This document shows, in pieces, positions 8,582 to 29,366 of a stretch of DNA of 37,964 nucleotides (the first letter of the stretch is position 1; every line of letters starts with the position of its first letter). The notes under the pieces were generated by a model. That model was not told the origin of the DNA. It worked only from the letters and a program-made list of their open reading frames with translations, and searched no databases. The translations under genes were made by a program, and so were the position numbers. This DNA is from Cellulosimicrobium sp. (GTDB taxonomy: Bacteria; Actinomycetota; Actinomycetes; Actinomycetales; Cellulomonadaceae), in contig JAQSXO010000002.1 in NCBI GenBank assembly GCA_029256625.1, positions 1 through 37,964 on the forward strand, given 5' to 3'.

Positions 8582-9796
8582 GTGCCCCCATCGACACCGG
8601 CCGTCCGCGTCAGCGGCCTCGGCAAGACGTACCGCATCGGCCTGTCGGGAGACCGCCCGACGACCGCGGTCGAGGCCGCGCTGCGCTGGGCGCGCAACCC
8701 GGTACGGCGCGGGTCGCACGAGCTGTTCGACGCACTCGACGACCTGACCTTCGAGATCCCCTGGGGCCAGGCCACCGGCATCATCGGACGCAACGGTGCG
8801 GGCAAGTCGACGCTGCTCAAGGTCCTCACGCGGATCACGGCCCCGACCCGTGGCCGCATCGAGCTCAACGGCCGGATCGGGTCCCTGCTCGAGGTCGGCA
8901 CCGGATTCCACCCGGAGCTCACGGGCCGGGAGAACATCTTCCTCAACGGCGCCCTGCTCGGGATGACGCGCAAGGAGATCCAGCGGCACTTCGAGGAGAT
9001 CGTGGACTTCGCGGGCGTGACGCAGTTCCTCGACACCCCCGTCAAGCGCTACTCCTCCGGCATGTACGTGCGGCTCGCGTTCTCGGTCGCCGCGCACCTC
9101 GAGACCGAGATCCTGGCCATCGACGAGGTCCTCGCGGTCGGTGACGCCGAGTTCCAGGCGAAGTCGCTCGCCAAGATGCGGGACGTCGCCAAGGACGGGC
9201 GCACGGTGCTCTTCGTCAGCCACCAGGTCCAGACGGTCACCGCGCTGTGCACGTCGGCCATCTACCTGGACCGTGGCAGGCTGCTGTACCAGGGCGAGGT
9301 CCCCGGCGCTCTCGACCTGTACCGCCGCAGCTTCGAGAAGTTCGCGCTCGAGCAGAAGGACCCCCGGTCGCGCCCGGGGAGCGGGGAGCTGCGCGCGCAG
9401 GCCGTCGAGATGGGCGACGACCAGTTCGAGCCCGACAGCGCGAAGACCGTCCTGATCCACATGGGCAAGAACCCGGACCTCGTGGGCCAGTACTTCGTCT
9501 CGTGCCACATCAACGACCTCAACGGGAGCGTCCTCGTCCAGTGCGACTCGCGGGTCGTCGGCGGCTGGTACGACGCGTCGTCGGAGCACACCGTCAAGCT
9601 GACCGTCCGCCACCCCTGGCTCAAGCCCGGCCGTTACACCGTCGACGTCTTCGTGTGCAAGACGGGCGTCATGGACGCGTGGGAGGGAGCCGCAGGGTTC
9701 GAGGTGCTGCCCCACAACCCGTATCCCGAGCTGGCGGGCGACGAGGCCCTGTCCCGCGGGCTCGTGCTGGCGGACTTCGACTACGAGAAGAGCTGA
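8582..9796 (+). CDS. wzt: Polysaccharide ABC transporter ATP-binding protein Wzt with C-terminal substrate-recognition-type domain
   Basis: Walker A GIIGRNGAGKSTLLKVL, signature YSSGMYVRLAFSVA, EILAIDEVLAVGD; about 150 aa C-terminal extension (FEPDSAKTVLIHMGKNPDLVGQYFVSCHINDLNGSVLVQCDSRVV...) typical of Wzt_C. Confidence 0.92.
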   Translation: MPPSTPAVRVSGLGKTYRIGLSGDRPTTAVEAALRWARNPVRRGSHELFDALDDLTFEIPWGQATGIIGRNGAGKSTLLKVLTRITAPTRGRIELNGRIGSLLEVGTGFHPELTGRENIFLNGALLGMTRKEIQRHFEEIVDFAGVTQFLDTPVKRYSSGMYVRLAFSVAAHLETEILAIDEVLAVGDAEFQAKSLAKMRDVAKDGRTVLFVSHQVQTVTALCTSAIYLDRGRLLYQGEVPGALDLYRRSFEKFALEQKDPRSRPGSGELRAQAVEMGDDQFEPDSAKTVLIHMGKNPDLVGQYFVSCHINDLNGSVLVQCDSRVVGGWYDASSEHTVKLTVRHPWLKPGRYTVDVFVCKTGVMDAWEGAAGFEVLPHNPYPELAGDEALSRGLVLADFDYEKS

Positions 9797-9799
9797 GCG

Positions 9800-10618
9800 G
9801 TGACCCAGACGATCATCACCCCCCCGGGGCGCTTCTCGGCACCGAACCTGCGCGAGATGTGGCAGGCGCGCGAGGTGCTCGTCCGCTTCGGCATGCGCGA
9901 CGTCGTGCTGCGCTACCGGCAGACCGCGGTGGGCGTCGTGTGGGTGCTCATCCAGCCGCTGGTCTCCGCGGGCATCTTCTCGATCGTCTTCGGGCAGGTC
10001 GCGGGCCTCTCGAGCGACGGCAAGCCGTACTTCATCTTCAGCTACGTCGGCATGCTCGCGTGGACGCTCTTCTCCGGGGTGCTCAACCGCTCGGCGGGCT
10101 CGATGGTCGGCAGCCAGGCGCTCATCTCCAAGGTCTACTTCCCGCGCATCCTCGTCCCGCTCTCCGGCATCCTGTCGGTCTTCCTCGACTTCGTGATCGC
10201 GCTCGCGCTCGGGATCGTCCTGCTCTTCGTCTACGGCATCAACCCGGGCTGGCCGGCGCTGCTGCTGCCCGTCTGGGCCGTGCTCATCGCGTTCCTGGGT
10301 GCCGGGCTCGGTCTGGCCGCGTCGGCCATCATGGTCCGCTACCGGGACGTGGCGTACGTCCTGCCGTGGATCGTCCAGACGCTGCTCTACGCGTCGCCGG
10401 TCGCGTACTCGGTCTCGGCCGTCCCGGCGAACCTGCAGGCCCTCTTCAACGCGAACCCCCTCGCCTGGTTCCTCGACCTCTTCCGGTGGTCGCTCCTGGG
10501 GACCCCCGCGCCCGCGGGATGGAAGATCGCGGGTGCCGTCGTGGTCTCCCTGCTCGTGCTCACGTGGGGCATGTTCGTCTTCCAGAAGTTCGAGCGCGAG
10601 TTCGCGGACGTGATCTAG
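9800..10618 (+). CDS. wzm: Polysaccharide ABC transporter permease Wzm (ABC-2 family)
   Basis: FGMRDVVLRYRQTAVGVVWVLIQPLVSAGIFSIVFGQVAGLSSDGKPYFIFSYVGMLAWTLFSGVL...MVRYRDVAYVLPWIVQTLLYASPVAY. Confidence 0.92.
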   Translation: MTQTIITPPGRFSAPNLREMWQAREVLVRFGMRDVVLRYRQTAVGVVWVLIQPLVSAGIFSIVFGQVAGLSSDGKPYFIFSYVGMLAWTLFSGVLNRSAGSMVGSQALISKVYFPRILVPLSGILSVFLDFVIALALGIVLLFVYGINPGWPALLLPVWAVLIAFLGAGLGLAASAIMVRYRDVAYVLPWIVQTLLYASPVAYSVSAVPANLQALFNANPLAWFLDLFRWSLLGTPAPAGWKIAGAVVVSLLVLTWGMFVFQKFEREFADVI

Positions 10619-15096: not shown

Positions 15097-16050
15097 TCAC
15101 TCGCCGTGGTACGCCCCGCGGTACTCGCCGCGCACGAGGCGGACCACGTTGCGCTTCACGTCGAAGGGGAGGAAGCGCCAGTTCGGGACGGTCCAGTACC
15201 GCAGGACCTCACCCACCGCCCGCAGCCGCTGCGCGCGCGGGCCCGGCGCCCGCCACGCGTGCCGCACGAGCTGCGCGTTCAGGTACCACTGCGGGAAGGC
15301 GACAGGTCGGCGGAAGCCGGGGTCGTAGGTGCGGACCTGCCGGATGACGTCCCCGCCCTGCACCTTGTTGGTCTGCGCGTCGTGCCGGCGGGACCGGAAG
15401 AGGTCCTCGGGGACCTGCACCCAGGGAGCACGCATGGCCATCCCGACCGCGAGCGCGATGTCTCCCCCGTAGTAGGGCGGGAGCCCGCCCCTGGACCGTA
15501 GGACGTCCGTCCGGTGGACGCCGCCGAAGCCGATGACCTGGTAGACGTGGCGACGCAGGAAGAGCGCCACGCGGTCGGCCGGTCCCGGCGAGAGGAAGTC
15601 GAGGTCGAGGTCGTCCATGTGCCCGACGATCGCGTCGTCGGGATCGATCAGCTGCACGCGGGAGAAGGCGATCGTCGCCTCGGGGTGCTCGCGCAGCGCG
15701 TCGCGGCACGCGGTCAGGTGCCGCGGGAGCACGACGTCGTCGGCACCGTTCCACATGAACAAGGGTGCCCGCGCCTCGCGCAGCACCCGGTTCCAGTTCC
15801 AGGGGACTCCGCGGTTGCGGTCGCTGCGGAGGACGCGGAACCTGTCGTCGACCGCGGCGAAGCGCTCGGCGATGGCGAGCGTACCGTCCGTCGACGCGTT
15901 GTCGGCGACGATCACCTCGACGTCCCGGAGGTCCTGCGTGCGGAGCGCCTCGAGCGTCCGCTCCAGGTACTCCGCACCGTTGAAGACGGGGACCCCGACC
16001 GTCACCTGCGGGACGGCGTCCGCGACCGGACTGCGTTCGAGACCGCTCAT
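15097..16050 (-). CDS. Glycosyltransferase family 2
   Basis: MSGLERSPVADAVPQVTVGVPVFNGAEYLERTLEALRTQDLRDVEVIVADNASTDGTLAIAERFAAVDDRFRVL...PLFMWNGADDVVLPRHL; RBS aggagcagg. Confidence 0.88.
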   Translation of the reverse strand: MSGLERSPVADAVPQVTVGVPVFNGAEYLERTLEALRTQDLRDVEVIVADNASTDGTLAIAERFAAVDDRFRVLRSDRNRGVPWNWNRVLREARAPLFMWNGADDVVLPRHLTACRDALREHPEATIAFSRVQLIDPDDAIVGHMDDLDLDFLSPGPADRVALFLRRHVYQVIGFGGVHRTDVLRSRGGLPPYYGGDIALAVGMAMRAPWVQVPEDLFRSRRHDAQTNKVQGGDVIRQVRTYDPGFRRPVAFPQWYLNAQLVRHAWRAPGPRAQRLRAVGEVLRYWTVPNWRFLPFDVKRNVVRLVRGEYRGAYHGE

Positions 16051-16144
16051 CCTGCTCCTTCCGGCCGCCCCGACCGCGCACCGGGCGCCCGGATCAGCGT
16101 AGCCAGCCGGGGTCCGCAGGGCACGGGACGGCACGGGTGAAAGC

Positions 16145-17614
16145 TCACCCGGCGGCCGCGCTCAGGACGAGGAGCCAGTCGCCGTCGCCCGGTGGCTCGA
16201 GGTCGTCCGGGTCCGCCTCCGCCGGCGTGCCCGTCGCTGCCTCGTACCACGTGGCGGCAGCGTTCTCCGGGACCACGGAGGGGTCGAGCTCGATCCGCCG
16301 GGCGGTCGGCAGGTAGACGACGGTGAGCGTGCGGTCGTCGGACGACGCCACCGTCGCGACGTCGGACTCCAGGACGTCCGCCCCTCCGTCGTCCGACGAA
16401 CCCGTCACCACGTCGTCGAGCAGGCCGGAGACGACCGCCCGTGCGCCGTCGACGGGCCGGAGGGTCCACCACTCGACGGAGCGCAGCACGTCGTGCATCG
16501 CGGCGCGCTCCGTGAGCTCCGGGTAGTCGTCCAGACGGTCGGACCAGCCGTCGGGGAACCACCAGTCCTGTGTCCCGAGGATGTCCCCCGCGGCACCGCT
16601 CGTGAGCGTCCACCCGGACTGCCTCCGGAGCGTCTCGGCCGTGGTCGCGTCGCCACCGTTGTTGTTCTCGCCCACGTACGCGCCCTCGCCGAAGAGGACC
16701 GGGCCGGCGTCCTGCGCGACGGCGCGGCGGACCGCCGCGTAGGGCGGCTGGTAGGTGTACACGAACTGCAGGTCCACGATGCTCGCGAGAGCCCGGTTGT
16801 CGACCGAGGTGCTCCCCCGGAACCCCTCGTCGTCGGGGTCGGTCGACGTGGACGGCGAGAGGTGGGCGGTCCACAGGTGATCGTCCCCGCTCTGGACGAC
16901 GCCCCGGTGGACGCCCTCGTACACGGGGCTGAGCTCGTCCCAGACCTCGCGCGGGAAGTCGCCGCCCATCGCCCAGACCACGTTGGGGGCGTCCCGGAAC
17001 CGGTCACCGAGGAACGCGCCGTAGCGTTCCCACGTGCTCGACGGCTGACGCCCGAGCACACCGGCCGCCCCGCTCCCGTCCGAGGCGTACGCGGGGACGA
17101 GCATCACGGTGATGCCGTGCTCCGCCGCGATCCGGACGAACTCGTCGACGCGGTCCCAGTAGTCGGACGACGGCGTGGTCCAGTCGTCGAGGTCCTCGAA
17201 CGGGACGAGCCCGTCGTCGGTCGCCCCGTCCGGATTGCCGCGCCCGCCGTCGGGCAGCACGACCAGGTCGAGGATCGCGAGGTTGTACCCCAGCCGTCCG
17301 CGGCTCTCGCAGTACGCCGACCACTCGGCGACGCTGGCGCGAGCGAGCGCCGACCACGGCGAGTCACCCTGGACCAGCACGGGCGCACCCGCCTGGTCGA
17401 GCAGGTACCGACCGTCCTCGGACACGTCGGTCACGTACGCCGGAGCCTCCTCGGGACTCGGGACGGCATCGGCCCTCGCCGTGGCGCTCTCCCCCGGCGT
17501 ACCAGAGCTGGCGCGCACGGGGGCGGGGTCCGGGACCGGACCGCACCCGACGGACGCGGTGACGACCACGGCCACGAGGGCGCACACGGGGGCTCCCCAC
17601 CTCTGCCGTCTCAC
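16145..17614 (-). CDS. DUF4038 (apiosidase-like) glycoside hydrolase-like lipoprotein
   Basis: Signal peptide with lipobox VRRQRWGAPVCALVAVVVTASVGCG; GRYLLDQAGAPVLVQGDSPWSAL, YWDRVDEFVRIAAEHGITVMLVPAY, NVVWAMGGDF, PVLFGEGAYVGENNNGGD are DUF4038-type blocks. Confidence 0.75.
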   Translation of the reverse strand: MRRQRWGAPVCALVAVVVTASVGCGPVPDPAPVRASSGTPGESATARADAVPSPEEAPAYVTDVSEDGRYLLDQAGAPVLVQGDSPWSALARASVAEWSAYCESRGRLGYNLAILDLVVLPDGGRGNPDGATDDGLVPFEDLDDWTTPSSDYWDRVDEFVRIAAEHGITVMLVPAYASDGSGAAGVLGRQPSSTWERYGAFLGDRFRDAPNVVWAMGGDFPREVWDELSPVYEGVHRGVVQSGDDHLWTAHLSPSTSTDPDDEGFRGSTSVDNRALASIVDLQFVYTYQPPYAAVRRAVAQDAGPVLFGEGAYVGENNNGGDATTAETLRRQSGWTLTSGAAGDILGTQDWWFPDGWSDRLDDYPELTERAAMHDVLRSVEWWTLRPVDGARAVVSGLLDDVVTGSSDDGGADVLESDVATVASSDDRTLTVVYLPTARRIELDPSVVPENAAATWYEAATGTPAEADPDDLEPPGDGDWLLVLSAAAG

Positions 17615-17718
17615 GACGCACCGTCCAACGGGCGAAATCCCGGGAGAGACGGGGCGCCGGGTCCGCGGCTCCGGCACAATCGGGGGAACCAGACCACGCC
17701 TGTCACCGAGGAGCCGCC

Positions 17719-18666
17719 GTGCCTGAGGTCCAGCCCCGCCACGACGACCGCACTCTCGTCTCGGTCGTCGTCGCGACCGACCGGGGCGGGCCGTTCCTCG
17801 CGGACGCCCTGCGCTCCGCCGAACGCCAGTCCTACGAGGACCTGGAGATCGTCCTCGTCGACGACGGAGCGAAGGACAGGGCGTCGCTCGCCCGGATCAC
17901 CGACCAGTTCCCGCGCGTCCGGGTTCTCCACCAGGCCAACGCCGGGGTCTCCGTCGCCCGGAACTTCGGTGTGTCGAGGACGGCAGGCGACCTGCTCGTG
18001 TTCCTCGACGACGACGACGTCTGGCACCCCGACCGCATCGCGCGACAGGTCGAGTCCCTGGCGGCGGCCCCGGACGCCGTCGTGTCCTACTGCGGCATGC
18101 GCACGGTCGATGCCGACGGCGAGGAGCTGTACCCCGCCGACCAGCGAGCGGTCCGCGACGTCCACGACGTCCTGCGCCGGAGGACGGGGATCATCCTCCC
18201 GAACGTCATGATCCGGAGGCAGACCTTCCTGCGCGTCGGCGGCTTCCACCCGGCCTTCCGGCGTGCCCAGGACCTGGACCTCGTCCTCAAGGCTGCGCTC
18301 GAGGGCGACTTCGTCTTCGTGCCCGAGACCCTGGTCGACTACCGCTTCCACGCCGGGAACAACACGCGGCGTCACCGCGAGCTCTGCCGGAGCATCGACC
18401 ACGTGGTCCGGCTGCACCTGTGGAACGCGCGGGAGCGGGGGCGGGAGGACCTCGTCGCCGACCATCGCGACAGCCTCGCGGCCAACGCACGGTTCGCCGC
18501 GTGGAGCTCTGCCCGCGCAGCACGGCAGATGGCGAGGGAGGGCCGGCCCGTGCCGGCGCTCGCCGAGCTCGCGTGGGCGGCGCGCTTCGCCCCGACCGCA
18601 CCCGTGGAGTGGCTCCGCAAGCGAGCTCATCGCGCGACCGCGTCGTCGGGCGCCGGCACGCGCTGA
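17719..18666 (+). CDS. Glycosyltransferase family 2
   Basis: TLVSVVVATDRGGPFLADALRSAERQSYEDLEIVLVDDGAKD...NAGVSVARNFGVSRTAGDLLVFLDDDDVWHPDRI; GTG start with RBS cgaggag. Confidence 0.88.
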   Translation: MPEVQPRHDDRTLVSVVVATDRGGPFLADALRSAERQSYEDLEIVLVDDGAKDRASLARITDQFPRVRVLHQANAGVSVARNFGVSRTAGDLLVFLDDDDVWHPDRIARQVESLAAAPDAVVSYCGMRTVDADGEELYPADQRAVRDVHDVLRRRTGIILPNVMIRRQTFLRVGGFHPAFRRAQDLDLVLKAALEGDFVFVPETLVDYRFHAGNNTRRHRELCRSIDHVVRLHLWNARERGREDLVADHRDSLAANARFAAWSSARAARQMAREGRPVPALAELAWAARFAPTAPVEWLRKRAHRATASSGAGTR

Positions 18667-19889
18667 GAGAGCACGACGGCGAGCTCGGCGAACTGCTCCC
18701 GGGCCGCGACGCTCATCCTCGACGTGGCCTCGCGGATCTCCGCGCGGGCCACGTCCCCTGACTCGTCGAGGAGCCGCGCCACGAGCGCCTCGAGCGCCTC
18801 GGCGTCGGCCTCGCGCGCCTCCACGACGAAGGCGCTCTGCCCCGCGCTCTCCATGATCGTGCGGGTCTTGACGCGGTCCGCGAGCGCCACCACGGGACGC
18901 CCGAGACGGAACGCCGTGATGACGTTGTGGTAGCGGGAGCAGACCACGACCCCGCAGCGTCGGACGGCGCCGTCGAGCGCACCCGGCACGGAGACGTCCA
19001 CCAGCTCCACCACCCCGCCCGGGCCCGGCCCTCCCTCCTGGCCGACGCGCCGGACGACCTCCGCCGCCCACGGGGTGTCGGCGTCGTCGCCGCCGAAGAC
19101 GAGGACGTCGACGCCGCGGGACCGCATCGTGAGCGCGAGGTCGACGCACGCCTGGACGTACGGGGAGGTGGCGTGATCACGGGCGTCCGCCGTGCGGGGG
19201 ACGCCGAGCCAGCCATGGGCCATGACGCCGAGGCCCACGCACGTGCCCGGGGCGGGCGGGTCGGCGGCGTCCGCGGCGAAGACCACGTCGGCGTGGACGG
19301 GGTCGTCCGCGCGCGCGCCTCCGTCCTGCACCATCGCGCCGCGGCTGCGGGCGTCACGGAACGAGCGGTACGTGGCGAGCCGCATCAGGCGCTCCACCAG
19401 GCGGCCCGCGGCGCCGCCCTCCCACGGTGTCGCGCCGACCGCGACGATGCCGAACGGCCGCCGGCAGGCGCGCGTGGCGAGCGCCGATCCCAGGAGGTTG
19501 AGGAACCCACCGAGGCTCGACGACGAAGCGGTCGCGTCGTTCTCGAAGAGCCCTCCGCCGGCGACGAGGAGCACGTCGACCGAGCGCGCCACCCGCACAT
19601 GGCGCCCGAGGTCGCCCGCCGCGCCGACGAGGCGGTGCACGACGCGCGCGACCGGGGAGCCCGACCCTGGCCTCGACGCGCCGAGCCACACCACGGGAGC
19701 GGTCCCTGCCGGGCGCTCGTCCGGAGGCGTGCCGTAGCTGACGAGCACGGGAACGGCCTCGGGCATCGTCCGGCTCAGCTGGTCGACGAAGGTGCGCGCC
19801 GTCTCGTCGTTCCCCCAGTTGCCGGTGCCCCACCCGCCGTAGAGCCCGATCCGCAGGGGTGCGGGTACGGCGCTCGGCCGTCGTGCCAT
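18627..19889 (-). CDS. Polysaccharide pyruvyl transferase family protein
   Basis: LRIGLYGGWGTGNWGNDETARTFVDQL...VDVLLVAGGGLFEND...VVVCSRYHNVITAFRLGRPVVALADRVKTRTIM. Confidence 0.8.
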   Translation of the reverse strand: MARRPSAVPAPLRIGLYGGWGTGNWGNDETARTFVDQLSRTMPEAVPVLVSYGTPPDERPAGTAPVVWLGASRPGSGSPVARVVHRLVGAAGDLGRHVRVARSVDVLLVAGGGLFENDATASSSSLGGFLNLLGSALATRACRRPFGIVAVGATPWEGGAAGRLVERLMRLATYRSFRDARSRGAMVQDGGARADDPVHADVVFAADAADPPAPGTCVGLGVMAHGWLGVPRTADARDHATSPYVQACVDLALTMRSRGVDVLVFGGDDADTPWAAEVVRRVGQEGGPGPGGVVELVDVSVPGALDGAVRRCGVVVCSRYHNVITAFRLGRPVVALADRVKTRTIMESAGQSAFVVEAREADAEALEALVARLLDESGDVARAEIREATSRMSVAAREQFAELAVVLSQRVPAPDDAVAR

Positions 19890-19893
19890 CGCA

Positions 19894-20532
19894 TCACTCT
19901 CCGAGGGTGAGGACTGCCTTCCGGATGACGAAGCCTTCTGCGTAGCGCGCCCGGCACTCCACGCCCCGCAGGCGCATGAGGCCGAGGAACATCTCGTCGT
20001 CCCACCAGTCGCGGTCCACCTGCGAGGGGTACGACGCGGTGAGCAGGTCGACCTTGCGGCGCGCGTTCTCCGCGCTCACGGGAACGTAGTGCGTCACCGG
20101 GCCGAGGTCGCCGTCCCACTTGGGGATCTCGTACTCGAGCACGAGCGCGTCGCGCCACGCCGTGGGCACGAGCTCCGCGACGAGGCGGTGGTCCTGGTGG
20201 GAGTCGTCCCGGCTGGGACAGAGGATCAGGTCGGGGCGCAGCTCCTGTGCGAGCTCCTCGAGCGCCGCCTTCACGGCGCCCCAGTGCTCGGGCAGGCGCC
20301 CGTCGGGAAGGTCGAGCTGCCGGAGCGTGGCACCTGGGACGAACGCCTCGGCCGCGCCTCGCGCCTCCTCGTGCCGTTCCGGCGTGCCCGTCATGGTCGC
20401 GAAGGTCGCTCGCAGCTCACGCCGTGCGGCGAGCTCGAGCAGGGTGCCGCCACAGGCGATCTCGATGTCGTCGGGGTGGGCACCGAGGCACAGGACGTCG
20501 AGCGGTCCCGACGGCACGGCGAGGCCGATCAT
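19894..20532 (-). CDS. PIG-L/LmbE family deacetylase
   Basis: DVLCLGAHPDDIEIACGGTLLELA (AHPDDxE) and CPSRDDSHQDHRLVAELV. Confidence 0.88.
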   Translation of the reverse strand: MIGLAVPSGPLDVLCLGAHPDDIEIACGGTLLELAARRELRATFATMTGTPERHEEARGAAEAFVPGATLRQLDLPDGRLPEHWGAVKAALEELAQELRPDLILCPSRDDSHQDHRLVAELVPTAWRDALVLEYEIPKWDGDLGPVTHYVPVSAENARRKVDLLTASYPSQVDRDWWDDEMFLGLMRLRGVECRARYAEGFVIRKAVLTLGE

Positions 20533-20542
20533 GCGCCGCCCC

Positions 20543-21397
20543 TCATCGCGGGATCACCGTGGGCAGGCTCGACAGGTCCGGGACCTCGACCACCGGCACC
20601 CGACGGCCGGCGTTCCGACGGCGCCGGTCCCACACCGCCCACGGGCTCTGCCCGGTGCGGTGCAGCTCCTCGAGCTGCGACCGCTCCTTGAGCGTGTCCA
20701 TGGGCGCCCAGAAGCCGTCGTAGCGCACGGCGCGGAACCGCCCGTCCTTCGCGGCCCGGACGCACCCGTCCATGACGAGGTCGTCGCCCTCCTCGAGGTA
20801 GTCGAAGATCCCCTGGCGGAGCACGAAGTACCCGCCGTTGATCCGCATCTCCATGTCCGCGACCGGCTCGATGCCCTGGAGGTTGCCGTCCGGGTCGATC
20901 TTCACGACGTGGAACGAGTCCTGCGGGTCCACCGCCAGGAGCGTGCCGACGGCGTCCGTCTGGAGGAACTCGTCGACGATCGTGTCCATGGGGGCGTCGG
21001 TGAGCACGTCGCCGTAGTTGGCGAGGAACACCTCGTCGTCGTCCAGGTACGGGCGCACGCGCCGCAGACGCTCCCCGATGGCCGTGTCCATGCCCGTGTC
21101 GACGAACGTGATGCGCCAGTCGCTGATGTCGCTCGAGAGGAGCTCGATCTCCCGGCCGCCCTTGGAGAGCACGAAGTCGTTGGAGTGCGTCTCCTGGTAA
21201 TGGAGGAAGTAGTCCTTCACCGCGGTCGCCCCGTAGCCGAGGCAGAGCACGAACTCCGTGTGCCCGAAGTGGGCGTAGTACCGCATGATGTGCCACAGCA
21301 CGGGCCGGGACCCGATGGGCATCATGGGCTTGGGCAGCGAGTCGGTCCCCGACCGCATCCGCATGCCGAGTCCTCCGCAGAACAGCACGACCTTCAT
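20543..21397 (-). CDS. Glucose-1-phosphate cytidylyltransferase-like sugar nucleotidyltransferase
   Basis: MKVVLFCGGLGMRMRSGTDSLPKPMMPIGSRPVLWHIMRYYAHFGHTEFVLCLGYGATAVKDYF...WRITFVDTGMDTAIGERLRRV...INGGYFVLRQGIFDYL...FWAPMDTLKERSQLEELHRTGQSPWAVWD resembles RfbF; RBS ggaggggtgacg. Confidence 0.82.
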   Translation of the reverse strand: MKVVLFCGGLGMRMRSGTDSLPKPMMPIGSRPVLWHIMRYYAHFGHTEFVLCLGYGATAVKDYFLHYQETHSNDFVLSKGGREIELLSSDISDWRITFVDTGMDTAIGERLRRVRPYLDDDEVFLANYGDVLTDAPMDTIVDEFLQTDAVGTLLAVDPQDSFHVVKIDPDGNLQGIEPVADMEMRINGGYFVLRQGIFDYLEEGDDLVMDGCVRAAKDGRFRAVRYDGFWAPMDTLKERSQLEELHRTGQSPWAVWDRRRRNAGRRVPVVEVPDLSSLPTVIPR

Positions 21398-21399
21398 CG

Positions 21400-22812
21400 T
21401 CACCCCTCCTCGGGCGGGTCCGGGAGCCGCCGCGGCGCGGCGTGCTCGCGCATCGCCGGAGCGACGGGCCGGCCGCGCAGCAGCCCGTCGGTCGTGCCGG
21501 CGTCGATCGCACGGCGGTACACGGCGAGCGCGCCTCGTGCCGCGTCGACCGTCGCCTCGACGTCGGCGTCCGTGTGGGCCGCGGAGATGACCAGCGACTG
21601 CCCGAGGACGCCACGCTCGAGCATCTCCTGGATGAACAGGGTGCGGAACGCCTGCGAGGGGTTGCCCTCGTGGTCGCGGGTGCCGAACACGAGGCACGAC
21701 GAGCGCCCCATGATCGTCACGTGCTCGGCGAGCCCTGCCTCCGCGGCCGCCGCCTCGAGCCCGGCACGGAGCTTGTCGCCCTGCGCCTCCATGACCCCGA
21801 CCACGTCGCGCTCCGCGTACGCGTCGCTCACGGCGAGGTACGCGGCGAGCCCCGTGGTCTCGGCCCCGTGGGTCGTCGAGAGGAGGAACACGCGCGAGGC
21901 GTCCGTGTTGAGGCCGCCCTGGTCCATGAGGTCGCGACGGCCCGCGAGCGCCGAGACGGAGAAGCCGTTGCCGAGCGCCTTGCCCCAGGTGGAGAGGTCG
22001 GGCGTCACCCCGTAGACGGACTGGGCGCCACCCGCCGCCCATCGCATGCCGGTGATCATCTCGTCGAAGATCAGGACGAACCCGTCGGCGTCGGCCAGCT
22101 CGCGCAGCCCCTCCAGGAACCCGGGAGCCGGCTCGGCCGTCGCCGTGGCCTGCTCCAGGACGAGGGCGGCGATCCGCCCCGGCTGCTGGTCCAGCAGCGT
22201 GCGCACCGAGTCCAGGTCGTTGTAGCGGAACCCGACGGTGAGGTCGCGCTGCGCCGCGGGGATGCCCGCCGTCATCTGGGTGGTCCCGATGAACCAGTCG
22301 TCCGTCGAGAAGAACGGCTGCGTCGAGCAGACGGCGACGAGGTCGCGCCCCGTGGCCGACCGGGCGAGCTTGACCGCCGCGGTCGTGACGTCGGAGCCGT
22401 TCTTGGCGAACTTCACCATGTCCGCGCCGGGGACCTGCTCCAGGAACCGCTCCGCGGCCCGCAGCTCCCACACGGACGGGCGCGAGAAGTTGACGCCGTC
22501 CCGGGCGGCACGCGCGACGGCGTCGACCACCGGCGCGTAGCCGTGCCCGAGGGTGACGGCGCGCAGCCCCATCCCGTACTCGACGAACCAGTTGCCGTCG
22601 AGGTCGAGGACGCGGGCGCCCTCCCCGCGGACGAGCACCGGTGCCATGTTCTCCGGGTACTGGTCGGAGCCGCGTGCGTACGTGTGCGCTCCGCCCGGCA
22701 CGAGCTCGTGCAGGCGTCGCTGCGCCGCGGCGGAACGCCGGAAGCCGCGGGTGGTGCCACCCGGTGCCGGCACTCCGTCCGTGGTGTCGGACCGGACGGC
22801 GGGTTCTGTCAT
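21400..22812 (-). CDS. Class III aminotransferase, glutamate-1-semialdehyde aminomutase-like
   Basis: RRLHELVPGGAHTYARGSDQYPENMAPVLVRGEGARVLDLDGNWFVEYGMGLRAVTLGH...FDEMITGMRWAAGGAQSVYGVTPDLSTWGKALGNGFSVSALAGRRDLM (PLP Lys in WGKALGNG). Confidence 0.85.
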   Translation of the reverse strand: MTEPAVRSDTTDGVPAPGGTTRGFRRSAAAQRRLHELVPGGAHTYARGSDQYPENMAPVLVRGEGARVLDLDGNWFVEYGMGLRAVTLGHGYAPVVDAVARAARDGVNFSRPSVWELRAAERFLEQVPGADMVKFAKNGSDVTTAAVKLARSATGRDLVAVCSTQPFFSTDDWFIGTTQMTAGIPAAQRDLTVGFRYNDLDSVRTLLDQQPGRIAALVLEQATATAEPAPGFLEGLRELADADGFVLIFDEMITGMRWAAGGAQSVYGVTPDLSTWGKALGNGFSVSALAGRRDLMDQGGLNTDASRVFLLSTTHGAETTGLAAYLAVSDAYAERDVVGVMEAQGDKLRAGLEAAAAEAGLAEHVTIMGRSSCLVFGTRDHEGNPSQAFRTLFIQEMLERGVLGQSLVISAAHTDADVEATVDAARGALAVYRRAIDAGTTDGLLRGRPVAPAMREHAAPRRLPDPPEEG

Positions 22813-22993
22813 GGTGCTGGGCCTCGATCTGCTGGTCGGACGGACGTCCACGGGGTACGGGAGGAGAGAGGGACCGGTGCGGTCGCTGATGCTCCACAGT
22901 CTCGTCACGTGCGCGACGGTTGGGAAGCACGTGGGGCATTCTTCATCCGCTCCGACCGTCCGGTCCGGGTCGTGGCAGCCCTACTGTGGCTGC

Positions 22994-23542
22994 ATGGAGA
23001 TCATCAAGACGTCCATCCCCGACCTCGTCGTGCTCCAGCCGACGCCGCACCGCGACGAGCGCGGGTACTTCTCCCGGACCTTCGACGTCGACGTCGTGAG
23101 GGACGCCGGGATCGACCCGGCAGGCTTCAAGCAGGAGAACCAGTCGCGGTCCTACCAGGGCGTGGTCCGCGGCCTGCACGGACGGTCCAACAAGGGCGAG
23201 GCCAAGCTCGTGCGCTGCGCGCACGGGGCCGTCCTCGACGTCGCGATCGACGCCCGGCCCGACTCGCCGACGTTCGGGCAGATGGAGACGTTCCTCCTCG
23301 ACGACCAGCTGTGCCGCCAGGTGTACATCCCGCGCGGGTTCCTGCACGGCTACCAGGCGCTGACGTCGGTCACGGACTTCGTGTACCGCATGGACGACTT
23401 CTACGGCCCGGACGAGGACGTGACCGTGAGCTTCGACGACCCCGACCTCGCGGTGCCGTGGCCGGCCCCGATCACGATCGTGAGCGAGCGCGACCGCCAC
23501 GGCCTGTCGTGGGCGGAGTACCGGGCGAGCCTCGGCCGCTGA
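22994..23542 (+). CDS. dTDP-4-dehydrorhamnose 3,5-epimerase (RmlC)-like protein
   Basis: MEIIKTSIPDLVVLQPTPHRDERGYFSRTFDVDVV...QENQSRSYQGVVRGLHGRSNKGEAKLVRCAHGAVLDVAIDARPDSPTFGQ...VYIPRGFLHGYQAL. Confidence 0.88.
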   Translation: MEIIKTSIPDLVVLQPTPHRDERGYFSRTFDVDVVRDAGIDPAGFKQENQSRSYQGVVRGLHGRSNKGEAKLVRCAHGAVLDVAIDARPDSPTFGQMETFLLDDQLCRQVYIPRGFLHGYQALTSVTDFVYRMDDFYGPDEDVTVSFDDPDLAVPWPAPITIVSERDRHGLSWAEYRASLGR

Positions 23543-23553
23543 GACCGAGACGC

Positions 23554-23586
23554 GAGGGCGCCCGCTGCAGGATCGCGGGCGCCCTC
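23554..23586. terminator. Strong hairpin between convergent genes; candidate bidirectional terminator
   Basis: GAGGGCGCCCGC (23554-23565) and GCGGGCGCCCTC (23575-23586), 12-bp perfect inverted repeat with 9-nt loop, between stop codons at 23542 (+) and 23595 (-). Confidence 0.75.
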
Positions 23587-23594
23587 TCTCGACG

Positions 23595-24770
23595 TCAGGC
23601 GACGGGCTCGACCTCGCGCGGCATGGGGTCCAGGACGACCCACCGCCCGCCGTTCGACTCGATCTCGGGCAGCGCGCGCCGCACCTCGTCGAGCAGGTCG
23701 GGCACGAACAGCAGCACGCGGTCGGGGCGCAGCGCGACCAGGTCGGCGGGCGACACGATGGGGATCCGGTTGCCCGGCATGGTCCGGCCGTGCTTCGCGG
23801 TGGACGCGTCCGCGACGGCCGCGACCTGCTCGCGCGTGATGCCCGCGGAGCGCAGCAGCGCCGACGTGCGCGACGCCGCGCCGTACCCGCCGACGGTCAG
23901 ACCCTGCGCGGTCGTCCCGCGGAGGTACTCCCCGATGGCGGACACGGACTCCTCCAGGGCGTCACCCAGGCGGGCGACGTAGGCGGGGTCCGTGATGCCC
24001 TCGGCGAGCTCGCGCTCGACGATCGCGGTGACGTCGGGCGACTGCTCGTCGCCGAACGGGGAGCCCTGCTTCGCGAAGGCGAGCAGGATCGTGCCGCCGT
24101 AGAGCGGGTACTCCCAGGCTCCGACCGCGACCAGACCCAGCTCGGCGCCCATCGCGACGAGGGCCGGCGTCGAGTAGTACGCGAAGTGCCCGTGCCGCAG
24201 CGCGTTCCAGATCCCCGAGCGGACGATCGCCGCCACCGTGTGGTACTGCAGCAGCAGGACGCCGTCGTCGGCGAGCTTGTCCACGCGCTCCTGCAGCGCC
24301 GCGCGCTGGTCGGCGTCGTGCATCATCCCGAAGACGTCGACGATGAGCTCGGCCGGCCCCTCGTCCACCTCGACCATGTCGCGGCGCGCGAGCTGCTCGA
24401 CCCACGACCCCCCGTGCGGGCTGGGGTACTCCAGCACCCGGGTACCCCGGCGGACGAACCCGGCGGCCTCCGCCTGGTCGACGGCGGACTCTGCCTGGGC
24501 GACGAGCGCTGCCGGCTCGACGCCGCGCGGCTCCTCGGGGGTGGTCGGGTCGCTCTCGAGCTGGACCAGCCCGCTCGCGGTGCTCATGACCATCCGCAGC
24601 GGGTGCTCGGGGTCGGGGCCCGGGTCGGTCGGGAGCGGGAAGAGGTCCGCCGGGGGCTGGTCGCCGAGGTCGAGGACGACGTAGCCGCCCTCGGCGCCGG
24701 ACCAGCGGTCGCGCCAGGACGGGTCCGCGGCGGGCAGGTCGGGGGCCGGTGTGGTGGCGGGCTGCGTCAT
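23595..24770 (-). CDS. C-methyltransferase-like protein (TylC3/NovU-like architecture, degenerate zinc and SAM motifs)
   Basis: YVVLDLGDQPPADLFP...SGLVQLESDPTTPEEPRGVEPAALV...LLLQYHTVAAIVRSGIWNALRHGHFAYYSTPALVAMGAELGL...VGGYGAASRTSALLRSAGIT...VADASTAKHGRTMPGNRIPIVSPADL (C-terminal domain typical of sugar C-methyltransferases). Confidence 0.7.
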   Translation of the reverse strand: MTQPATTPAPDLPAADPSWRDRWSGAEGGYVVLDLGDQPPADLFPLPTDPGPDPEHPLRMVMSTASGLVQLESDPTTPEEPRGVEPAALVAQAESAVDQAEAAGFVRRGTRVLEYPSPHGGSWVEQLARRDMVEVDEGPAELIVDVFGMMHDADQRAALQERVDKLADDGVLLLQYHTVAAIVRSGIWNALRHGHFAYYSTPALVAMGAELGLVAVGAWEYPLYGGTILLAFAKQGSPFGDEQSPDVTAIVERELAEGITDPAYVARLGDALEESVSAIGEYLRGTTAQGLTVGGYGAASRTSALLRSAGITREQVAAVADASTAKHGRTMPGNRIPIVSPADLVALRPDRVLLFVPDLLDEVRRALPEIESNGGRWVVLDPMPREVEPVA

Positions 24771-24813
24771 GGGATGTCCTCCGGTCGATGGGTGCGGGCG
24801 GCTGGCCGCCCGG

Positions 24814-25836
24814 TCACTGCAGTCGCAAGGTCGCGAGGTCGAGCCGGCCCGAGCGCGCGAGCTCCTGGATGCGCTGGAGCCGGACGAACCGGGCCCCCTC
24901 GAAGTCCTCCGCGGTCAGGCCCCGCTCGCGGGCGTCGTTCCAGATCTCCTCGATCCCGTCGCGGATCGTCCAGCGCGGCGCGAGGTCGGGGAGCTGCGTG
25001 CGGATCTTGGTGAAGTCGACCTGGTAGTTGCGCGCGTCCGGCCCGGCGCCGTCGGCGAACGAGACCGGTGCTCCCGTGATCTCGCTGACCTGCTCGGCGA
25101 TCGTGCGGATCTGGACGACGTCCTCGTCCCGCCCGACGTTGAAGGCCTGGTCGTGCACGACGTCGCGCGGTGCCTCGAGCACCGCGAGGAACGCGCGGGA
25201 GATGTCCTCCACGTGCACGAGCGGTCGCCACGGAGAGCCGTCCGACTGCAGGCGCACCTCGCCGCGCGTGAACGCCGTGCCGGTGAGGTTGTTGACCACG
25301 ATGTCCGCGCGCAGGCGCGGCGACGAGCCGTACGCGGTCGCGTTGCGCAGGTAGCTCGGCGAGAACGAGTCGTCGGCGAGCGGGGAGATGCCCTGCTCGG
25401 CGATGACCTTGCTCTCGCCGTAGGGCGTGACGGGGTGGAACTCCCCGTCCTCCGCGACGGGCGCGTCGCCACCAGCGCCGTAGAGCGAGCAGGAGGAGGA
25501 GAAGAGGAACCGCTCGACGCCCGCCTCCTTGGCGGTGCGCGCGACGTGGACGGCACCGTGCGCGTTGACCCCGTACGTCGCGTCGGGGTTGAGGTGGCCG
25601 ATCGGGTCGTTCGAGATCGCGGCGAGGTGCACGACGGCGTCGAACCCCTCGAGGTCGGCCGGGGTCAGGTCCCGGATGTCGCCGGTGCGCTGCTCGTACC
25701 CGCCGGGCTGGGGACCGAAGTCGCAGCCGTCGTACCACCCCACGTCGAGGCCCACGACCTCGTGGCCCGCCGCCTGGAAGATCGGGACCAGGACCGCGCC
25801 GATGTAGCCGCGGTCGCCGTCGACGAGAACACGCAT
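24814..25836 (-). CDS. NAD-dependent epimerase/dehydratase (extended SDR)
   Basis: MRVLVDGDRGYIGAVLVPIFQAAGHEVVGLDVGWYDGCDF...VVHLAAISNDPIG...LFSSSCSLYGA...VTPYGESKVIAEQ (YxxxK). Confidence 0.87.
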   Translation of the reverse strand: MRVLVDGDRGYIGAVLVPIFQAAGHEVVGLDVGWYDGCDFGPQPGGYEQRTGDIRDLTPADLEGFDAVVHLAAISNDPIGHLNPDATYGVNAHGAVHVARTAKEAGVERFLFSSSCSLYGAGGDAPVAEDGEFHPVTPYGESKVIAEQGISPLADDSFSPSYLRNATAYGSSPRLRADIVVNNLTGTAFTRGEVRLQSDGSPWRPLVHVEDISRAFLAVLEAPRDVVHDQAFNVGRDEDVVQIRTIAEQVSEITGAPVSFADGAGPDARNYQVDFTKIRTQLPDLAPRWTIRDGIEEIWNDARERGLTAEDFEGARFVRLQRIQELARSGRLDLATLRLQ

Positions 25837-26001: not shown

Positions 26002-28038
26002 ATGAGGGTCCTCCGCGTCTCGCACAGCGCCGTGGTCGCCGCGTGGCGCGAGCGCGAGCGCCTGCTGCGCGCGGCGGGCGTCGACGTCCACCTCGTCTCG
26101 GCCCGGGAGTGGGACGAGGGCGGCAGCCGGGTCGCGCTGCGGCCCGGCCCGGACGAGCCGGTGCGCGGGGTCCGCACGTTCGGCTCTCACCCGGCGCTGT
26201 TCGTCTACGACCCGGTCGCGCTCTGGCGGGTCCTCGGCGCGGAGTGGGACGTGGTCGACCTCCACGAGGAGCCGTTCGCCCTCGCGACCGCCGAGGTCCT
26301 CGCGCTGCGCTCCCTGCGCGCCGCCGTCGACCGGCTCCGGGGGCGCGCGGCCTCCCGCACGGCCGGCGCACCGTACGTCCTGTACTCCGCCCAGAACCTC
26401 GAGAAGCGCTACCCCTTCCCGTTCCGCACGTTCGAGGCCCGTGCCCTGCGCGGCGCGGCCGCGGTCTCGGTCTGCAACGACGAGGCCGGACGGATCGTGC
26501 GCGCGAAGGGCGCGCGCGGCCTCGTCGAGACGATCCCGCTCGGCGTCGACCTCGACGTGTTCTCGCCCGCCGGCACGGGACCGCGAGAACGGGTCGGCGA
26601 CGCCACGACCGTGGGATACGTCGGCCGGCTCGCCGAGCACAAGGGCGTCGGCACCCTGCTCCGAGCCGTCGCCGACGACCCGCACCTGCACCTCCTCGTC
26701 GCCGGCGCCGGCCCGAGCGAGCGCGCGCTTCGGGAGCAGGCGCGCCCGTTCGGCGACCGGGTCCGGTTCGTCGGTCCCCTCGCCGACCACGAGCTGCCGG
26801 ACTTCTACCGCGGGCTGGACGTGCTCGCCGTCCCGTCGCGCGAGACGCCCGGCTGGGTCGAGCAGTTCGGGCGCGTGGCGGTCGAGGCGATGGCGTGCGG
26901 CGTCCCGGTCGTCGCGAGCGACAGCGGCGCGCTGCCCGACGTCGTCGGGGGCGCCGGCCTGCTCGTGCCGCCCGACGACCCGGCGGCGCTGCGCGACGCG
27001 CTCCTGCACGTCACCACGGAGCCCGGCCTGGCGACCCGGCTGCGAGCCGCCGGGATCGACCGGGCGCGGTCGTGCTCCTGGGGGGAGGTCGCGCGCCGCT
27101 ACCGCGCGGTCTACGAGGCGGTCACCTCCCGAGGAGAGGACCCCGGGTCGCGCGGCGCGGCCGCGCAGACGGCGCCGCTCGACCTGCCCGAGGTCGTCCT
27201 CGTCGCGTACGGGTCGCCCGACCTCGTCCGCTCCGCCCTCGCGCCGCTCGTGGGCAGGCTGCCCCTCACCGTCGTCGACAACTCGTCGCTCGCGGAGATC
27301 CGCGAGGTCGCGGAGCTGGCCGGGGCCCGCTACCTCGACCCCGGTCGCAACGGCGGATTCGCGGCCGGCGTGAACCACGGGCTCGCCCACCGTCAGGCCC
27401 CGGGACGTGACGTGCTGCTGCTCAACCCCGACGCCGTGGTCTCCCTCGAGGACGTCGCGGCGCTCCAGCGTGCGCTCCGTGCCCACGCACGCATCGCGAG
27501 CGTCGGGCCCGCGCAGGTCGACGGCGACGGGACCCCGGCACGCGTCGTCTGGCCCTACCCGTCGCCCGCCGCGACGTGGGCGGAGGCGGTCGGGCTCGGG
27601 CGGTTCCGCCCGACCCCGCCCGACCGCAGCTTCGTCATCGGGTCCGTGCTCCTCCTGCGGGCCGAGGCGATCGCCGACGTCGGCGTCCTCGACGAGCGCT
27701 TCTTCCTGTACGCGGAGGAGACCGACTGGGCGTACCGCGCCAACCTCCGCGGCTGGCGGCACGTCGCGGTCCCGGACGTCCGCGCGACGCACCTGGGCGG
27801 CGCGACGAGCTCCGACCCCACCCGGCGCGAGACCCACTTCCACGCGTCCCAGGAGCGCTACCTGCGCAAGCACCACGGGGCCACGGGCTGGCACGCCGCG
27901 CGCGCCGGCGCCGTCGCCGGGGCCGCGGTCCGCTCCGTCGCGCTGCGCGGCCCCGACCGCGACCTCGCGAGGCGACGCCTGCGGCTGTACCTGCGCGGCC
28001 CTGTCCGGGCAGAGGCGCTGCTGGGACGGTCGGGGTGA
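26002..28038 (+). CDS. Two-domain glycosyltransferase: N-terminal GT4, C-terminal GT2
   Basis: N-part: TVGYVGRLAEHKGVGTLLRAV...AVPSRETPGWVEQFGRVAVEAMACGVPVVASDSGALPDVVG. C-part: LPEVVLVAYGSPDLVRSALAPLVGRLPLTVVDNSS...GARYLDPGRNGGFAAGVNHGLAH...LLLNPDAVVS...FLYAEETDWAYRANLRGW. Confidence 0.85.
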   Translation: MRVLRVSHSAVVAAWRERERLLRAAGVDVHLVSAREWDEGGSRVALRPGPDEPVRGVRTFGSHPALFVYDPVALWRVLGAEWDVVDLHEEPFALATAEVLALRSLRAAVDRLRGRAASRTAGAPYVLYSAQNLEKRYPFPFRTFEARALRGAAAVSVCNDEAGRIVRAKGARGLVETIPLGVDLDVFSPAGTGPRERVGDATTVGYVGRLAEHKGVGTLLRAVADDPHLHLLVAGAGPSERALREQARPFGDRVRFVGPLADHELPDFYRGLDVLAVPSRETPGWVEQFGRVAVEAMACGVPVVASDSGALPDVVGGAGLLVPPDDPAALRDALLHVTTEPGLATRLRAAGIDRARSCSWGEVARRYRAVYEAVTSRGEDPGSRGAAAQTAPLDLPEVVLVAYGSPDLVRSALAPLVGRLPLTVVDNSSLAEIREVAELAGARYLDPGRNGGFAAGVNHGLAHRQAPGRDVLLLNPDAVVSLEDVAALQRALRAHARIASVGPAQVDGDGTPARVVWPYPSPAATWAEAVGLGRFRPTPPDRSFVIGSVLLLRAEAIADVGVLDERFFLYAEETDWAYRANLRGWRHVAVPDVRATHLGGATSSDPTRRETHFHASQERYLRKHHGATGWHAARAGAVAGAAVRSVALRGPDRDLARRRLRLYLRGPVRAEALLGRSG

Positions 28039-29366
28039 TCCGGCGGTCCGCGACATGGGCGGCCGGCGCCGTGCTCGTCGCCGCGGTGCTGGTGGGCATC
28101 GGGGTCCTCGTCCCGGACTACACGCTCTTCGCGCTCGCGGCCGCGGTCGTCGTCCTCGCGCTCGGCCTCACGGCGTACGACCCCGTGGCCATCCCCGTCC
28201 TGACCATGCCCGCGCTGGTGGTCGTCCAGCGCGTGGGTGGCGAGGGGGTGAACCTCTCCCTGAGCGACTTCGTGCTCTTCGCCGGGTTCTGGTTCGCCGC
28301 GTTCTTCGCACCCCGACCGTTCTCGCGCCCGTTCCGGACGATGCTCTGGCTGTCCGTCGTCTACCAGGCGGCGACCCTCTTCACGGTCCTCGTCAACCCC
28401 TACGTCCAGAACACCGTCGAGTGGTTCCACGCCTGGCTCTCCGTCGCCGGAGCGCTCCTGGTCGGGTGGGCGGTCGGCCGCGCAGGGCGCGCGCGCATCG
28501 GGCTGACGCTCTTCCTCGTGCCGTCCCTGGCCATCGCGGCGCTGACGTGCGTCGTCGCGGTCCAGCAGCTCGCGTCCGGCAACACCGGCCCCGTCTACCT
28601 CGAGTGGCCGTACGGGATGCACAAGAACTTCATCGGCTGCGTGCTCGCGTTCTCGGCGCTCGTCGCCTACGCACGGCCCTGGTGGGTGGGGTGGCCCCGC
28701 TGGTTCTCGCTCCTGTCCTTCTGGCTCTGCTCGCTCGCGGTCGTCGCGTCCCAGGCACGCCAGGCGATCGTCGGGCTGGCGATCGGGATCATCCTCGTCA
28801 CGCTCCGCGCCGACCCCGACCGCAAGCGGTCCCGGCTCATCCTGCTGGCCGTGATCCCCGGCGCCTACTTCGTGTGGAACGAGGTGCGCGAGCAGCTCGC
28901 GTCGGGGGACCAGTTCAACTCGGCGTACCAGCGCCTCACCTGGTACGAGCAGGCGCTGGAGGTGTGGCGCGAGAACCCCTGGGTGGGGGTCGGTCTGCGG
29001 TGGTGGGTCGCAGGGCGCACGGAGTACGGCTTCCAGCCTCCTAACGCGGAGCTCGAGGTGCTGTCCTCGGCGGGCCTCGTCGGCCTGACCGGATTCCTCG
29101 TCCTGTTCGTCGGGTCGCTCGTCGTGCTGTGGCGGCTCAACCCCCGGTTCGGGACCCTCGCGTTCAGCGTCGTCCTCATGCGACTCATCCAAGGTCAGTT
29201 CGACCTGTTCTGGGCCTCCGTCGTGGTCTCCGTCCCGTTCGCTATCGCGGGCGTCTGCCTCGGCGCGGAGGCGTACGCCCGCTCGCGGCACGACGTCCGG
29301 GCCGGGGTCCTGCCGCCGACGCGAGACCGGCACCTGCGCTCGCTCCAGGAGATGGCGGAGGCATGA
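28035..29366 (+). CDS. O-antigen ligase/polymerase (Wzy/WaaL-like) integral membrane protein
   Basis: Many TM segments; WYEQALEVWRENPWVGVGLRWWVAGRTEYGFQPPNAELEVLSSAGLVGLTGFLVLF typical of O-antigen ligase family; GTGA overlap. Confidence 0.83.
   Translation: MIRRSATWAAGAVLVAAVLVGIGVLVPDYTLFALAAAVVVLALGLTAYDPVAIPVLTMPALVVVQRVGGEGVNLSLSDFVLFAGFWFAAFFAPRPFSRPFRTMLWLSVVYQAATLFTVLVNPYVQNTVEWFHAWLSVAGALLVGWAVGRAGRARIGLTLFLVPSLAIAALTCVVAVQQLASGNTGPVYLEWPYGMHKNFIGCVLAFSALVAYARPWWVGWPRWFSLLSFWLCSLAVVASQARQAIVGLAIGIILVTLRADPDRKRSRLILLAVIPGAYFVWNEVREQLASGDQFNSAYQRLTWYEQALEVWRENPWVGVGLRWWVAGRTEYGFQPPNAELEVLSSAGLVGLTGFLVLFVGSLVVLWRLNPRFGTLAFSVVLMRLIQGQFDLFWASVVVSVPFAIAGVCLGAEAYARSRHDVRAGVLPPTRDRHLRSLQEMAEA

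Follow-up and report, generated by a model that had tools for sequence, protein, structure and literature searches.

The window analysed here is the entire 37,964-base contig C83 (JAQSXO010000002.1) of a draft Cellulosimicrobium sp. genome (GCA_029256625.1). Six adjacent genes between its positions 19894 and 25836 are one copy of a conserved, orphan module that is biochemically uncharacterised, and on balance we favour the view that this module makes an amino sugar, 4-keto-derived and activated with cytidine diphosphate (CDP), that is destined for the surrounding polysaccharide. All six families named in a first-pass annotation of the window were confirmed in place with Pfam and NCBIfam: a PIG-L/LmbE-family de-N-acylase (19894–20532; Pfam PIG-L, 70.6 bits), an RfbF-like nucleotidyltransferase (NTase, or NT'; NTP_transferase; 20543–21397), a class III pyridoxal phosphate (PLP) aminotransferase of the glutamate-1-semialdehyde aminomutase-like (GSA) PRK06209 family (21400–22812; NF004856, 679 bits for a cut-off of 486), an RmlC-type 3,5-epimerase (22994–23542; TIGR01221, 170 bits for a cut-off of 156), MT2, a C-methyltransferase-like protein of degenerate fold (23595–24770; Methyltransf_14, 110 bits), and an extended short-chain dehydrogenase/reductase (SDR; 24814–25836). 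That annotation had taken the six genes for a self-contained unit. They do stand together and recur as a set, but they do not form one operon because only the RmlC gene is on the + strand, pointing away from the aminotransferase gene and towards the MT2 gene; the other five are on the − strand. RmlC is also on the opposite strand in loci of Oerskovia, Isoptericola, Sanguibacter, Tsukamurella, Shinella and Agrobacterium. Promoter and terminator scans found nothing.

The same set was found in Tsukamurella, Gordonia, Streptomyces, Shinella, Agrobacterium and others with a plasmid protein search using the aminotransferase. A scan of genome contigs with the NTase alignment yielded 80 further loci, and when 396 genomes of the order were searched for the NTase, 18 module loci (not all of them new) and 18 canonical RfbF loci, which served as controls, were obtained. 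Sampling anchored on GSA, which did not depend on the NTase search, gave 12 loci; nine of them have the remaining module, and one of the other three is a contig of 9.6 kb. When pooled, 111 loci (the window included) carry the NTase in 110 cases, PIG-L in 107, the SDR in 100, a second methyltransferase-fold protein (MT1, see below) in 96, RmlC in 90, the aminotransferase in 78, a polysaccharide pyruvyl transferase-like protein (PPT) in 69, DUF4910 in 57 and MT2 in 39. The co-occurrence elsewhere, which the first-pass annotation had proposed as a check, extends across phyla: the carriers are Actinomycetota, rhizobia and other Alphaproteobacteria, with a gene order that varies between loci. As the set recurs at about 110 other loci, the neighbourhood is not due to chance. 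The locus counts include near-copies (many from Streptomyces; L027 and L112 are apparently one contig), so p-values given below are only indicative. The module is sporadic: at the threshold used, the aminotransferase family occurs in nine of 296 genomes drawn from the phylum. A reduced version (L129–L134) consists of SDR, PIG-L, NT', MT1 and another S-adenosylmethionine (SAM) methyltransferase-like protein, without aminotransferase, RmlC, MT2 or DUF4910.

The family profile of the NTase has RfbF (1tzf) as its best solved relative with 221 bits, the next scoring 63. Residues for nucleotidyl transfer and metal binding (R, K25 and two Asp) are kept in 96–97 of 97 NTases. The Lys of the EKP motif is nevertheless lost and the Gly of RFG replaced by His in all 95 module NTases of a first set and in all 19 of a second (the two share a few loci), while both are kept in 19/19 canonical RfbF proteins; these are acceptor-site positions in RfbF. 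In the tree, the module NTase clade is split from canonical RfbF with a support of 100/100, and identity to the NTase also separates the module (at least 47%) from canonical RfbF (at most 40%). In the same order, PIG-L is present in 18/18 module loci versus 0/18 canonical RfbF controls, and its zinc-site residues (H, D, D and H, D, H) are kept in 90–91 of 91 module homologues. Since PIG-L accompanies the altered NTase type and not canonical RfbF, an N-acylated sugar-1-phosphate is suggested as the substrate. Characterised PIG-L enzymes mostly use substrates containing N-acetylglucosamine (GlcNAc), for which reason we propose GlcNAc-1-phosphate: the acceptor of the NTase is probably an N-acylated amino sugar phosphate of this kind, not glucose-1-phosphate. 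A literature search for the pairing of PIG-L or DUF4910 with a cytidylyltransferase returned nothing relevant, only a haloarchaeal genome paper. The canonical RfbF loci (L136–L153) carry a simpler triad of RfbF, the same SDR subfamily and RmlC, without PIG-L, aminotransferase or RfbG; it is common in the order of the window (SDR in 16/18 loci, RmlC in 17/18) and would perhaps make a non-deoxy CDP-hexose epimer.

The first-pass annotation had noted the absence of a sugar 4,6-dehydratase. Indeed, no RfbG and no DegT protein is present among the window proteins scanned, although the Pfam scans did not take in every long frame. What the SDR profile offers instead is a best solved match to 6vo6 (149 bits; next, 106), which is presumably Cj1427 (consistent with reference 21 of PMC10680097). 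The S-Y-K triad is kept, and a Cys/Ser stands at the Asp/Glu pair of 4,6-dehydratases in 83/83 sequences. Cj1427 oxidises C4 of GDP-heptose with alpha-ketoglutarate, ahead of a C3/C5-epimerase, and in Campylobacter jejuni a 4,6-dehydratase can be the alternative to the C4-dehydrogenase before one epimerase (PMC10680097). A natural exchange of the same kind occurs in the module: in L035 and L041/L051, which occupy two distinct positions on the NTase tree, the module has no SDR but contains RfbG (CDP-glucose 4,6-dehydratase) with intact TDK and YxxxK motifs. In L035 it is directly upstream of DUF4910, where related loci carry the SDR; in L041/L051 it is placed between the RmlC and aminotransferase genes. 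The SDR/RfbG exchange has a Fisher p of 0.0007, with loci that are not independent. As the SDR is nearest to Cj1427 and RfbG replaces it in two lineages, the "missing dehydratase" step is probably a C4-oxidation, and the SDR a probable CDP-sugar C4-dehydrogenase.

The catalytic residues H, K, Y and D of RmlC are kept in 82 of 83 module homologues, and a 3,5-epimerase working on CDP-4-keto-6-deoxyglucose is proven (PMC12369002). The PLP Lys of the aminotransferase is kept in 73/74; the nearest solved relatives of this enzyme are glutamate-1-semialdehyde aminomutases.

The module includes two proteins of the C-methyltransferase fold, MT1 and MT2, of which the window has MT2. In MT1, the SAM, zinc and YHEH motifs are all intact (82/82, the SAM Asn and catalytic Glu included), and its closest relatives are sugar 3-C-methyltransferases such as MtmC (4rv9). 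In MT2, SxHGGSW replaces the SAM motif and RHGH replaces YHEH, by which the SAM Asn is changed to His and the catalytic Glu to Gly, each in 30/30 relatives; the zinc cysteines are also lost in the clade of the window. The proposal that this gene encodes a working C-methyltransferase is ruled out by these losses. The AlphaFold model of MT2 (predicted local distance difference test score, pLDDT, 92) has a three-domain fold, the best match of which is MtmC with a template modelling (TM) score of 0.86. MtmC is described as a bifunctional ketoreductase-methyltransferase in a work cited in PMC5103430; on this account, a role of MT2 as a ketosugar reductase or isomerase is plausible from its modelled fold. 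DUF4910 is an M28-like putative hydrolase with conserved His, Asp and Glu positions. It occurs together with MT2 in none of the 111 loci, with about four exchanges on the NTase tree; a search of seven related genomes gave no DUF4910 match, but had no positive control. MT1 was found neither in the genome of the window nor in four relatives that are 98–100% complete. As the true 3-C-methyltransferase is lost here and most other copies have it, the strain should make an unbranched version of the product. The earlier suggestion of an amino or branched sugar would, in consequence, divide: an amino sugar is the best reading, while a C-methyl branch would be expected from most other copies but not from that of this strain.

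From gene content, co-occurrence, conserved and lost residues and natural swaps, we infer the reactions, the use of cytidine triphosphate (CTP), the acceptor, the order of steps and the product as follows. The NTase would activate a sugar-1-phosphate with CTP, probably that of an N-acylated amino sugar (GlcNAc-1-phosphate); the SDR would then oxidise C4, the C6 hydroxyl being retained, and RmlC would epimerise C3 and/or C5. The class III aminotransferase may aminate the ketone, PIG-L would free a second amine, and MT2 may reduce or isomerise the ketosugar, a step that DUF4910 would perform or replace in other lineages. Afterwards, the neighbouring GT2 could attach the residue and the pyruvyl transferase decorate it.

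Several points weigh against this pathway. CTP as the substrate of the NTase would follow solely from kinship with RfbF and from the RfbG swap, and, the usual substrate of RfbG being CDP-glucose, the swap would suggest that this compound is still what the NTase makes. The aminotransferase and RmlC are not strictly core, being absent from 33 and 21 of the 111 loci, respectively (for the former, some loci break off at a contig end or flank limit). Nor is the link between PIG-L and the altered pocket strict, since in one remote locus, L110, it is found together with a canonical, EKP-bearing RfbF. The window assembly is, moreover, 75% complete. There is an alternative to which we accord a limited but appreciable probability, whereby the NTase makes ordinary CDP-glucose, the product is a non-amino CDP-ketohexose derivative, and PIG-L and the aminotransferase use another substrate, e.g., a late glycan intermediate. 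RfbF is the closest solved structure of the NTase, an enzyme named for CDP-glucose (RfbG) replaces the SDR in two lineages, and clusters L129–L134 manage without aminotransferase or RmlC; against this, all module members depart from RfbF at the acceptor pocket, as none of the 19 canonical proteins does, and PIG-L occurs in 107/111 module loci. As an observation in its own right, L110 (G217) is a remote version of the module in which EKP-bearing RfbF and PIG-L are accompanied by MT1, DUF4910, aminotransferase and RmlC, and then by an APS-kinase-domain protein.

The first-pass annotation had also considered a non-sugar CDP-linked building block; the CDP-phosphoglutamine (O-methyl phosphoramidate, MeOPN) pathway of C. 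jejuni would be an example of such chemistry. The loss of the EKP lysine and the likeness of the aminotransferase to glutamate-1-semialdehyde aminomutases agree with it, but the intact RmlC residues, an SDR nearest to a sugar C4-dehydrogenase, the RfbG swap and a sugar C-methyltransferase in 96/111 loci make it very improbable. For MT2, the losses described above, zinc cysteines included, might mark the product of a decaying pseudogene or a partner that is not catalytic and contributes no step itself. We consider this rather unlikely: 30 sequences share conserved SxHGGSW, RHGH, Asp and Lys positions, in an aligned set reaching down to 34% identity to the window protein, MT2 does not overlap with DUF4910 over several switches, and its gene is kept in near-complete genomes. 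It is improbable that the class III enzyme acts as a sugar aminomutase, PIG-L baring an amine beside the SDR-made ketone, so that vicinal amino and keto groups of the CDP-sugar would be swapped, with MT2 as an erstwhile methyltransferase now serving as ketosugar reductase or isomerase.

The CDP-activated amino sugar that we favour would not come from a classical route, and in this we agree with the first-pass annotation. The CDP-3,6-dideoxyhexose pathway (RfbF-RfbG-RfbH) has in common with the module an RfbF-like NTase, but the module lacks RfbG (three of 111 loci excepted) and the DegT-type RfbH (DegT in 0/111 loci), and its NTase pocket is altered. The route is ruled out for the window, where neither RfbG nor RfbH is among the proteins scanned; the two types, RfbG and DegT, were found together in the control L148. 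The dTDP-rhamnose route is likewise ruled out, RmlA-like and RmlB-like genes being on contig C396 (RmlD was not separately searched); in whole-genome searches, the DegT and dTDP-sugar genes of the same genome were on other contigs. The C. jejuni heptose pathways (PMC10680097) share with the module C4-oxidation followed by an epimerase, a 4,6-dehydratase as alternative entry, and the nearness of the SDR to 6vo6; they differ in that GDP-heptose is used there, while the window has an RfbF-like NTase, a class III aminotransferase, PIG-L and MT2. The CDP-fucofuranose/CDP-6-deoxy-altrofuranose pathway of C. jejuni HS:41, as summarised in PMC12369002, shares a CTP:glucose-1-phosphate NTase, a CDP-4-ketosugar and a 3,5-epimerase, but it has a 4,6-dehydratase, a C4-reductase and a mutase and lacks PIG-L and aminotransferase. 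The sugar 3-C-methyltransferases MtmC, TcaB9 and KijD1 share their whole fold with MT2 (TM 0.77–0.86), not so the SAM motif and catalytic Glu. Judged by annotation alone, the gene list of the Anabaena heterocyst polysaccharide island (alr2825–alr2841) is similar in part.

The same set appears to be present in the unexplained "deoxysugar" cluster of Streptomyces coelicolor. As listed in PMC3610822, SCO0392–0401 encode a methyltransferase, transferase, hypothetical protein, epimerase/dehydratase, peptidase, hypothetical protein, glycosyltransferase, membrane protein, epimerase and GSA aminomutase; the Streptomyces module order, MT1-NT-PIGL-SDR-DUF4910-hypothetical-GT2-PPT-RmlC-GSA, matches it, the likeness being by order and annotated names alone. 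By comparison, the window has MT2 for DUF4910, no MT1, RmlC reversed and a different gene order. Passages covered in the literature call SCO0381–0401 a deoxysugar/glycosyltransferase cluster and report an effect of bldA on it, higher levels in the second mycelium (PMC3610822), members that belong to the AdpA response, and abundance in the proteome of S. coelicolor; no product is named for it in these passages. The combination is as odd as the first-pass annotation had it, but genetically it is not new, the same order having been reported for this orphan cluster. In Streptomyces sp. KN37, the module (L017, from 11103) adjoins a lanKC/AmfS-type lanthipeptide cluster on a linear plasmid.

The PPT gene (18627–19889, − strand; PF04230, 40.5 bits) directly adjoins that of PIG-L. 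A GT2 glycosyltransferase (15097–16134, −), with homologues in 76/110 module loci and 1/18 canonical RfbF loci, is the candidate dedicated transferase for the product. Pfam further identified an apiosidase-like glycosidase (PF13204/DUF4038; 16145–17677, −), an occasional companion with homologues in 11/110 module loci and 0/18 controls, and a second GT2 glycosyltransferase (17719–18666, +), in 11/110 module loci and best in the nearest relatives. Positions 8582–10618 and 27576–29366 hold an ATP-binding cassette (ABC) exporter pair plus a Wzy/O-antigen-ligase-like protein, both in the locus.

The set is widespread in bacteria and probably serves to supply a surface polysaccharide with an unusual amino sugar in CDP-activated form. 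With the proposal, the orphan "deoxysugar" cluster long known from S. coelicolor, to which the module apparently corresponds and the expression of which tracks development and antibiotic production, would gain a specific pathway that can be tested, and the same pathway would cover similar loci in rhizobia. It also draws attention to a cytidylyltransferase clade that is uncharacterised, to C4-oxidation as an entry into CDP-sugar chemistry, and, in MT2, to a methyltransferase fold apparently turned to another use.

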